In this document: positions 9,314 to 14,752 of the stretch, piece by piece | Layout: every line of letters starts with the position of its first letter | Position numbering within the stretch: the first letter of the stretch is position 1 | DNA from: a virus | Reading direction: 5' to 3' (one strand) | Virus record (IMG/VR): IMGVR_UViG_3300007735_000584 | Coordinates: 1 to 29,589 of that record | Length of the DNA: 29,589 nt | Notes under the pieces: model-generated | The model's input: only the letters and a program-made list of their open reading frames with translations | What the model was told of the DNA's origin: nothing | Databases searched by the model: none | Made by a program: the position numbers and the translations under genes

Positions 9314-9352
9314 AGTTTTGTTTTTAGGATTTGGATTGTTTTTAGATTTGCG

Positions 9353-9378
9353 AGGGGTGTTTCTACACCCCTTTATTT
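9353..9378 (+). terminator. Intrinsic terminator ending the lysis-phosphoesterase operon
   Basis: A 7-bp GC-rich stem GGGGTGT (9354-9360) and ACACCCC (9365-9371) with TTCT loop, followed by TTTATTTAT. It lies about 40 bases after the last stop codon. Confidence 0.85.
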
Positions 9379-9436
9379 ATACCCTTTCGCATATAATTTC
9401 AGCAGAATTATTCATTTTATACCCTTTCGCATATAA
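9376..9436 (+). repeat. Pair of identical 21-bp direct repeats, 40 bp apart
   Basis: The 21-base sequence at 9376-9396 (core TATACCCTTTCGCATATAA) is repeated exactly at 9416-9436. Start-to-start distance is 40 bp, close to four helical turns. Each copy has its own dyad, TTATA and TATAA ten bases apart. This suggests two operator sites bound by a dimeric regulator on one face of the helix. Confidence 0.85.
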
Positions 9437-9570
9437 ATAACAGGCCATTAAAAGAACATTTTTGTAGGTTTTTGTTCCATTAATAACCCCTTATAACATA
9501 TATTTCTTTTATTAATAACTATTAATTCTATTGAGTTTCAGCGAATCGGAAAAATTATTTTAAAAAAAAA

Positions 9571-9602
9571 TTCTAAAATATTTCTTTTAGAACTCTAAAA
9601 GA
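9571..9602 (+). promoter_or_regulatory. Overlapping inverted repeats before the early operon
   Basis: TTCTAAAA (9571-9578) pairs with TTTTAGAA (9585-9592), and TCTTTTAG (9583-9590) pairs with CTAAAAGA (9595-9602). The middle arm is shared, so the two hairpins exclude each other, or the three alternating CTAAAA half-sites serve as protein binding sites. The first early gene starts 50 bases downstream. Confidence 0.6.
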
Positions 9603-9652
9603 TATAATTTAGCATTCAGAAACGAAACAATAACAATCTAAAAATAAAAACA

Positions 9653-13225: not shown

Positions 13226-13524
13226 ACAAAACAACTAAAGACAAAGTAAAATCCTTATTAGTTCAATTTCCACATTTAAGGGATTCAGATGAAAGATTAA
13301 TTGCTACCTATTGGATGAAAGAAGCAGGTTCAAAAGATGCTTTGGATTCAATGTCTGCAACTCAATTTCTTTTGAATTTTGTTTCAGGTGCTTACACTAA
13401 TCCTGAATCTATCCGCAGAGTAAGACAAAAGATTCAAGAAGAAAACGAAGAATTAAGGGGTAAATCCTATTACAAAAGACAAAAATTAGAAATAAATGTT
13501 AGAAGCGAAATTAGAAACTTGTAG
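13216..13524 (+). CDS. Conserved-looking phage protein near the DnaA-like gene
   Basis: A 102-aa helical protein with the order RDSDERLIATYWMKEAG, FLLNFVSGAYTNPESIRRVRQKIQEENEELRG and YYKRQKLE. I recall this pattern (early ERLIA-x-YW, then PESI-RRxRxKxQE-x-PELRG-x-xY) from small proteins in replication regions of several phage groups. The basic helices suggest DNA binding. It overlaps the DnaA-like gene by 29 bases, so the two probably work together. Exact function unknown. Confidence 0.65.
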   Translation: MEINKTTKDKVKSLLVQFPHLRDSDERLIATYWMKEAGSKDALDSMSATQFLLNFVSGAYTNPESIRRVRQKIQEENEELRGKSYYKRQKLEINVRSEIRNL

Positions 13525-13888
13525 TCCTTGCGTTGAACATCCTTCGTTCTTTGTCATAAATACAATAAGCAAACGATTAAATTCAAATCAAATCCTGGAA
13601 GCAGTTTCTTCATTCTTTGAAATTCCTGTTTCTGAAATAGTAGGTAAAAAAAGATTTGGAAAGATTGTTGAAGCACGAATGGTTGCTGCTTATGTTTTAA
13701 GAAAAGACCGATATTTAAGTTTAGGATTAAAGCATATTGGTTCAATATTAGGCGGAAAAGACCATACTTCAGTTATGCACCACGTTAAAAGAATCGGTGA
13801 GTTAATAGAAATTGAACCTGAATTTAGAGAAAAAATAAAGGAATTATTTCTGCATACTTACGGAAGCATAACTTATTTTAACGATTGA
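13496..13888 (+). CDS. Free-standing DnaA domain IV-like protein
   Basis: A 130-aa protein; residues ~30-110 match the C-terminal DNA-binding domain of DnaA: ILEAVSSFFEIPVSEIVGKKR, then IVEARMVAAYVLRK, LGLKHIGSILGGKDHTSVMHHV. GGKDHTSV (86-93) corresponds to the DnaA signature GGRDHTTV that contacts the DnaA box. The AAA+ ATPase and other DnaA domains are absent, so it can bind DNA but not open an origin by itself. It may mark the phage origin, recruit host factors or compete with host DnaA. The replication initiator gene lies just downstream, across a structured leader. Confidence 0.85.
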   Translation: MLEAKLETCSPCVEHPSFFVINTISKRLNSNQILEAVSSFFEIPVSEIVGKKRFGKIVEARMVAAYVLRKDRYLSLGLKHIGSILGGKDHTSVMHHVKRIGELIEIEPEFREKIKELFLHTYGSITYFND

Positions 13889-13912
13889 TTTTTTCCCTAT
13901 TGAATAAAGGTT

Positions 13913-13920
13913 TATTTTTG
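13913..13920 (+). promoter_or_regulatory. Bacteroidota-type -7 promoter element
   Basis: TATTTTTG matches TAnnTTTG exactly. The predicted transcription start, 5-8 bases downstream, falls at the foot of the first hairpin of the leader RNA (13928). A -33 element is not clear: the nearest ATTG (13884-13887) leaves a 25-base spacer, longer than usual. Confidence 0.5.
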
Positions 13921-13927
13921 AGTAACG

Positions 13928-14020
13928 ATTTGTAAATGAAGTACGAACCATTTACAAATTAATTTTAGAGAAATCTAAATTAAAGCCCTGCAGTTCGTAC
14001 CTGTGGGGCAATTTTATTTT
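13928..14020 (+). ncRNA. Three-hairpin leader RNA with a loop-loop kissing interaction
   Basis: Hairpin 1: ATTTGTAAATG (13928-13938) pairs perfectly with CATTTACAAAT (13949-13959) around a 10-nt loop. Hairpin 2: AATTTTAGA (13961-13969) pairs with TCTAAATT (13974-13981), one bulged T and a GAAA tetraloop. Hairpin 3: GCCCTGCAG (13985-13993) pairs with CTGTGGGGC (14001-14009) with two adjacent G-U pairs, 7-nt loop TTCGTAC. The loop of hairpin 3 is fully complementary to GTACGAA (13941-13947) in loop 1. G-U pairs point to RNA of the + strand. AATTTTATTTT follows hairpin 3, so it could also end transcription. The ATG of the replication initiator is at 14021. Confidence 0.7.
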
Positions 14021-14752
14021 ATGGCAAAAGACCCTGCGTTATTATTTTACCCTAATGATTTTGATTCTGCAACAAAATTTCTTTCAGATGAACAGGTTGG
14101 TAAGTATTTAAGATTATTGATTGCTCAATTTCAACACGGAAGATTGAATCAAAAACAAGTGTTATTCATATGTAAATCATATGATGAAGATATAATGAAG
14201 AAGTTTACCAAAGATGAAAATAATTTATTTTATAATGAACGTTTAGAATTAGAGGTAAATAAAAGAAAATCTTATTGTGAAAGTAGAAGGAAAAATAAAA
14301 CATCAAAAAGTGAAGATAAGATAAACATATCTGAATCATATGATGAACATATGTATCAACATATGGAAAATGAAAATGTAAATGAAAATAAAAATGAAAA
14401 TAAAATAATAGTAAGAGGTAAAAAATTTTTAAGTTCAGATTTAAACGAACTTCCTGAACAATTTTTATTTAGTTCAATTCAATTAATTAAAATTCAAAAG
14501 AAAATTGATTTGACTAAAGATGAAGTTTTTAAATTGTGGGAAGTTTTTAAAACACAAAACTTGACAGGCGAAACGCATTACAATTCTGAAAACAAAGTTT
14601 ATCTTCATTTTACTAATTGGCTAAAAACACAAAAATTTGAAAATGGAAATTCAAAAACAAGACAACAAACAACTAACGAAGCAATTGACTACATCACAAG
14701 CAAAGGTGCTGAACTCTATGCCAAGCTATATGGCACCAATTCTGAAGGCTAA
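14021..14752 (+). CDS. Replication initiator, DUF1376/DnaD-like replisome organiser
   Basis: The ATG at 14021 gives 243 aa; a GTG at 14003 would lie inside the leader hairpin and is unlikely. The N-terminus MAKDPALLFYPNDFDSATKFLSDEQVGKYLRLLIAQFQHG and the later ENNLFYNERLELEVNKRKSYCESRRKNK are typical of the DUF1376 (YdaU-like) domain of phage replication proteins. A low-complexity Asn/Glu linker (about 110-127) joins it to a C-terminal helical domain resembling DnaD-like regions (KDEVFKLWEVFKTQNLTGE). Such proteins bind the origin and help load the helicase. Iteron-like DNA repeats lie inside this gene. The end overlaps the next gene by 116 bases. Confidence 0.75.
   Translation: MAKDPALLFYPNDFDSATKFLSDEQVGKYLRLLIAQFQHGRLNQKQVLFICKSYDEDIMKKFTKDENNLFYNERLELEVNKRKSYCESRRKNKTSKSEDKINISESYDEHMYQHMENENVNENKNENKIIVRGKKFLSSDLNELPEQFLFSSIQLIKIQKKIDLTKDEVFKLWEVFKTQNLTGETHYNSENKVYLHFTNWLKTQKFENGNSKTRQQTTNEAIDYITSKGAELYAKLYGTNSEG
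14167..14371. repeat. Iteron-like CATATG repeats inside the initiator gene, candidate origin
   Basis: CATATG occurs at 14167, 14178, 14337, 14348 and 14360, plus CATATC at 14326. Spacings within the clusters are 11, 11, 11 and 12 bp. The 12-mer TCATATGATGAA is repeated exactly (14177 and 14336). Since 11 is not a multiple of 3, the copies fall in different codon frames, which argues for DNA-level function. A C-free, very AT-rich stretch follows on the + strand (about 14361-14430), as in origins with iterons next to an unwinding region. Phage lambda also has its origin inside its initiator gene. Confidence 0.6.

Follow-up and report, generated by a model that had tools for sequence, protein, structure and literature searches.

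Two kissing hairpins ahead of the replication-initiation operon of uncultured tailed phages: a candidate new RNA family

In a large group of uncultured tailed phages with probable Bacteroidota hosts, the replication-initiation operon is headed by a leader in which the loop of a first hairpin is perfectly complementary to the loop of a last, terminator-like hairpin. This arrangement is shared by at least 71 distinct IMG/VR sequences, among which 35 different loop words occur. The element is real and conserved, apparently undescribed so far, and its sequence features mark it as a new RNA family, i.e., a 5' leader of the replication-initiation operon in a tailed-phage lineage. The tips of the two hairpins always match and yet keep changing, which hints at a switch that recognises itself and acts on phage replication. 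As to how such a switch would work, it is judged probable, though only just, that the last hairpin of this leader of about 95 nt is a regulated intrinsic terminator, read-through of which would be set by the loop-loop contact in cis and/or in trans.

Architecture of the leader

The window, namely the whole stretch of DNA that was analysed, comprises the 29,589 bases of an IMG/VR virus record, and the element occupies positions 13927-14020 of its + strand, between the stop of a gene for a DnaA domain-IV protein (13888) and the ATG at 14021 (Table 1). The arms of the first hairpin, H1 (13927-13938 and 13949-13960), form 11 Watson-Crick pairs and an outer G-T, hence 12 bp in total, and those of the last hairpin, H3 (13985-13993 and 14001-14009), form 9 bp including a tandem U-G/G-U. 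Between them, H2 is small and AU-rich, with 6 bp closed by a GAAA loop, or 8 bp with one bulged T when extended. The fold reaches -30.5 kcal/mol (z = -4.2), and none of 200 shuffles was equally good. All three hairpins of the original prediction were thus recovered by reading and by folding, although the unit proved to be the two kissing hairpins, H2 being optional; the predicted 7-nt complement between loop 3 and loop 1 was found as described and extends to 8 perfect nucleotides once the closing G of H3 opens (GTACGAAC/GTTCGTAC), a word with only these two occurrences within the 29.6 kb.

Table 1. Features of the leader and its flanking genes in the window
Feature	Positions	Strand	Evidence or remark
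Upstream gene, stand-alone DnaA domain-IV (DNA-binding HTH) protein	13496..13888	+	Bac_DnaA_C 2.5e-18
-7 box, TATTTTTG	13913..13920	+	matches Bacteroidota TAnnTTTG; 6 nt before H1
Hairpin H1, loop AAGTACGAAC	13927..13960	+	read directly and folded; compensatory change in the window's group and in A8
Kissing word 1, GTACGAAC	13941..13948	+	complement kept in all relatives despite word changes
Hairpin H2, TTTAGA-GAAA-TCTAAA, optional	13964..13979	+	identical in 5 relatives
Hairpin H3, loop TTCGTAC, terminator-like	13985..14009	+	fold, terminator scan, pair counts
Kissing word 2, GTTCGTAC	13993..14000	+	reverse complement of word 1
T-rich tract, AATTTTATTTT	14010..14020	+	fills the gap from H3 to the ATG
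First downstream gene, DUF1376-like, probable replication-initiation/primosomal protein	14021..14752	+	relatives, PHROGs, fold matches

Across members the layout is (i) the -7 box, (ii) H1, (iii) a short A/U-rich linker that may contain H2, (iv) H3, (v) the T-run, and (vi) the start codon. The features by which the family is recognised are all found in the window, i.e., H1 and H3 with a perfect loop complement of 6-8 nt, a TAnnTTTG box just 5' of H1, at 13913, and H3 with a T-run abutting the ATG of a gene of the replication operon. By a crude geometry, which depends on how the stems are called, the linker could span a straight coaxial stack in only 45 of the 71 members, so that pairing in cis would be feasible in many members and tight in others. 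Elsewhere in the window, the interval 9314-9650 is poor in ORFs and holds a terminator-like hairpin (GGGGTGTTTCTACACCCC) near 9353 as well as two perfect copies, at 9376 and 9416, of a 21-nt direct repeat (TTTATACCCTTTCGCATATAA).

Occurrence and gene context

The family was gathered by several routes. When the leaders of DUF1376-like genes were scanned for kissing hairpins, 36 of the 67 distinct leaders reached E<=-37. Among dinucleotide shuffles this score was reached by 1 of 1340, and among other tiles from these contigs by 8 of 1344; the scanner worked without a strict closing-pair rule for data and controls alike. Once closing pairs were enforced and chance matches dropped, 46 distinct members were left; L066, L093, L098, L159, L161, L167 and L030 were set aside as chance or doubtful matches. 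Loci chosen by their upstream gene alone gave 25 further members. Patterns built on the H1 stem with the loop left free returned 20 loci, some of them already met in the other searches, and loop 3 matched loop 1 in all 20. L002, L006 and L007 have stems near-identical to those of the window and the words GGACAAGC or GAGCGAAC, with loop 3 matching each time, and the layout recurs, with the words GTAGCAG/CTGCTAC, in L004, a relative at 70% protein identity. The element is not universal, being absent from about a third of the DUF1376-like leaders sampled and from the single protein relative found in the scan of one genome. Among the named phages examined, one weak initiator relative was seen and the family was not found; regions taken from seven records (L098 and L199-L204, including a Porphyromonas phage and EF62phi) showed nothing at the right place. 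Weaker candidates for kissing hairpins were noted outside replication operons at L093:1055-1180 (TGTGCGAG) and L086:3161-3260 (GTTTCGGGA).

The gene upstream of the RNA usually encodes a small DnaA-domain-IV protein, replaced in other lineages by other small proteins; the one in the window has no AAA+ domain, and such a protein is common 5' of the RNA. As for the first downstream gene, its product in the window has by itself no Pfam match above threshold, but DUF1376 is matched by 15 of its 21 aligned relatives, among which primosomal and replication-initiation PHROGs also occur. Its predicted model (pLDDT 75, pTM 0.40) has fold matches among DUF1376, Lin1244 and "Replication protein" phage proteins, and a PDB fold search for this protein gave no significant match. 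In the family at large this first gene varies, and may be DUF1376-like, Lin1244-like, DUF6291-like, a small ORF or an HNH endonuclease gene. HNH genes sit exactly between the T-run and the DUF1376-like gene in L013 (2175-2498), L022 (2026-2508) and L069 (2094-2501), the RNA staying in front in all three. In L002 (2536-3351) the initiator has a DnaD-like N-terminal half, its C-terminal part being 85% identical to the DUF1376-like protein of the window, i.e., a domain swap. Because the first gene varies and HNH insertions leave the RNA in front, the RNA goes with the start of the operon and not with any single protein. As such, the original placement directly before a replication initiator stands as far as the head of a replication-initiation operon is concerned, but not for a DUF1376-like gene in every case.

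Covariation and evolution of the kissing loops

The pairing of the two loops was examined in a swap test on 49 leaders, where H3 was picked by stability and nearness to the ATG alone and a complement of at least 6 nt was sought in the upstream 90 nt. A match was found in the leader's own sequence in 46 of 49 cases, as compared with 10.8% of swapped pairs, and none of 10,000 permutations gave more than 15 matches. In three alignments (of 19, 14 and 5 sequences) every cell of the kiss helix is paired (100%), always Watson-Crick, with the reservation that sequences inside groups are related and the cells are thus not independent events. Both sides have changed in 5 of 7, 5 of 7 and 4 of 8 pairs, respectively, one-sided changes number zero, and slid controls of the same alignments collapse. 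The compensatory changes by which the original prediction was to be judged are therefore present, and complementarity is never lost in these alignments. Compensatory change also occurs in H1 (Table 1). H2 is missing from many members and never varies in the window's group, so that it is without covariation support. Since the matching in the members surveyed extends no further than the loops plus one or two closing bases at most, it points to a loop-loop contact and not to a linear antiterminator.

The loops change faster than the stems. Among relatives at least 90% identical outside the kiss, both sides have changed in 9.1% of kiss pairs vs 1.4% of stem pairs, and the corresponding figures are 22% vs 5.7% at 85-90% identity and 26% vs 6.6% at 80-85% identity; between L006 and L007, 4 of 8 kiss pairs differ and 0 of 27 stem pairs. 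Loops that change quickly and are strictly matched can mean either that the letters themselves are indifferent or that new specificities are selected. The kiss words are also richer in G+C than the window (57% vs 32%). The window's own word GTACGAAC is carried at 2093-2146 of L013 on stems unlike those of the window, and the words GTGGTAG and GTAGCCG recur on unrelated backbones. The matched words constitute a natural library of kissing pairs for RNA engineering.

Strand, promoter box and 3' end

The element behaves as RNA of the + strand. It is the better-folding strand in 42 of 46 members, and the stems hold 64 G-T vs 11 A-C, a count in which G-T is favoured by the calling of stems under RNA rules; the earlier view of an RNA rather than a DNA cruciform is upheld on both counts. 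A perfect TAnnTTTG is present in 54 of 70 members vs at 51 of 2000 control positions (2.6%), and across members this -7 box sits just 5' of H1, so that transcription is expected to begin at the foot of H1, some 7 nt downstream of the box. The conserved box thereby backs the 5' end as it had been placed from the window alone. Further upstream, no clear -33 TTG is seen at the right spacing in the window, and the member consensus has a weak TTTG about 20 nt further up from the -7 box.

At the other end, the bases from -9 to -1 are 76% T in members, whereas before 153 other genes T makes up 25% and A 52%, and position -3 holds T in 49 of 59 members, compared with A in 111 of 188 controls; both traits are the opposite of what other genes of these phages show. 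In Flavobacterium, initiation is favoured by A at -3 and by a structure-free region from -20 to +20 (PMC6847099), and strong initiation is therefore not what the leader is built for. The interval 12-16 kb of the window holds just two terminator-like sites, where shuffling predicts 1.4. One of the two is H3 with AATTTTATTT; its U-tract begins with AA and is interrupted, and its likeness to a terminator taken alone is near chance.

Proposed mechanism and alternatives

Taken together, these features suggest transcription, termination and a role for the kiss along the following lines. Transcription would start at the foot of H1, and H3 with its U-run would act as an intrinsic terminator, giving as default product an RNA of about 75-100 nt made of these hairpins only, with the initiator gene made by read-through past H3. 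The loop of H1 would kiss the terminator loop, whether within the nascent RNA itself (in cis), between it and finished copies (in trans) or both, and so set the level of read-through. The supply of initiator would then follow the number of RNAs and hence of templates, in the logic of plasmid loop-loop attenuators, the two partners here sharing one transcript. This regulated termination, cis and/or trans, is the preferred reading, somewhat favoured overall. It overlaps with the tentative proposal of an explicit self-recognition in trans, where the terminated RNA acts on other copies, loop 1 on loop 3, in dimers or ring-like oligomers, and the words would be akin to incompatibility groups of co-infecting phages. 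The rapid and nearly always compensated change of the kiss relative to the stems in close relatives, most plainly between L006 and L007, speaks for such a trans action, as do the findings that loop changes alone can render ColE1 origins compatible (PMC9458437) and that the phage-associated GOLLD and ROOL RNAs multimerise via kissing loops (PMC12286853). Quick change could, however, mean that pairing alone matters; members were partly selected for intact pairing, some words recur on unrelated backbones, and no excess of different words per sample is seen (6 of 8 vs 199 of 223), on too few cases. More speculative is an RNA-only sensor of replication number, in which copies of the leader of about 95 nt would recognise each other through their loops and set read-through, the words diversifying as phages with the same word interfere and so giving rise to incompatibility-type groups. 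With loop words that change rapidly yet always match, interference between phages, perhaps as incompatibility groups among co-infecting phages, becomes testable by reading 7 letters.

Control of translation rather than of termination appears rather unlikely. Here a kissing pseudoknot within the ribosome footprint, ending 7-15 nt before the start codon, would repress initiation until opened, in line with the position of H3 within -20 of the ATG, a region whose structure reduces initiation in Flavobacterium (PMC6847099), and with the T at -3 instead of the favoured A; yet the ATG itself is unpaired, and the T-run and a promoter starting the RNA at H1 are left without explanation. The exact bracketing of the element by a promoter box and a terminator-like end would equally suit a stand-alone phage small RNA with other targets, merely sited before the operon. 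This is regarded as unlikely given the constant place before the operon, the lack of room for a separate promoter of the next gene, and the fact that the loop word is found nowhere else in the window and that both loops bind each other. The site, between the gene for a DnaA-like DNA-binding protein and the replication genes, would also be apt for a DNA-level origin element, be it single-strand hairpins, a primer or a protein-binding inverted repeat. Such an origin is very improbable, and was rejected on the strand bias of the fold and the wobbles as well as on the scarcity of DnaA boxes in the window (2 vs 5.9 expected); in addition, there is no GC-skew turn at the element, both half-sites would need to change together, and the consistent -7 box and T-run would have no part in it.

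Comparison with known systems

As to known RNA families, no Rfam family reaches its gathering score in the window or in 20 relatives, so that for the window the original expectation of no known class is borne out; searches of the open-licence literature turned up no account of a phage RNA of this kind. As such, the element amounts to a structured RNA at one fixed place in phage genomes and not in Rfam. The best sub-threshold match, the trpB motif (RF04312; 28.6 bits vs 59 needed, E 0.016-0.024), was set aside as a generic likeness, since it shares the hairpin, A/U linker, terminator hairpin and U-run but belongs to amino-acid genes of Firmicutes/Fusobacteria and has no kissing pair described (PMC11109978). 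Another comparable case is the candidate fhsA motif, whose terminator loop has been proposed to base-pair with the hairpin before it and thereby block termination (Narunsky et al., 2024; PMC11109978); it differs in being a candidate only, before a cellular one-carbon metabolism gene, and is absent from the Rfam matches of the window even at a relaxed E-value.

Among phage RNAs, likeness is limited to the use of loop-loop contacts. The phi29-type pRNA uses them in packaging. Such contacts are also found in GOLLD and ROOL (PMC12286853), and all three differ from the present element in being larger and/or having packaging or unassigned roles, none being a leader of replication genes.

Parallels also lie in plasmid copy control. 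In IncI plasmids, loop pairing likewise occurs ahead of the replication initiator gene repZ, where a leader peptide is needed, a pseudoknot activates translation and an antisense RNA takes part. The window has no listed ORF of at least 60 aa in 13888-14003, and the leader is not conserved as a protein, its loops and stems diverging freely; control of the IncI repZ type is only an analogy. In ColE1, RNAI is antisense to the primer precursor, and a full duplex follows. The resemblance lies in a three-hairpin RNA of about 100 nt with loops of about 7 nt fixing specificity (PMC9458437); the difference is that ColE1 has a primer-forming antisense pair, whereas the phage element precedes a protein operon.

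In pT181 and pIP501, antisense attenuation acts on the plasmid rep leader, where a kissing hairpin and an intrinsic terminator stand before the initiator gene. The phage leader likewise has a kissing hairpin and a terminator-like hairpin ahead of a replication initiator, the hairpin with a U-run directly before the gene being present in sequence form. In both plasmids the partner is a separate antisense RNA made from the other strand and hence complementary from the outset. In the phage leader, the loop complement lies on the same strand, so that two matched changes are needed; no separate antisense strand was found, and no antisense promoter was seen in a sigma-70 scan, which does not cover Bacteroidota promoters. 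The kissing hairpin of pT181 is described (PMC3753616). If control of the operon by the kiss is true, phages would thus use the loop-loop logic of plasmid copy control with sensor and target on one transcript.
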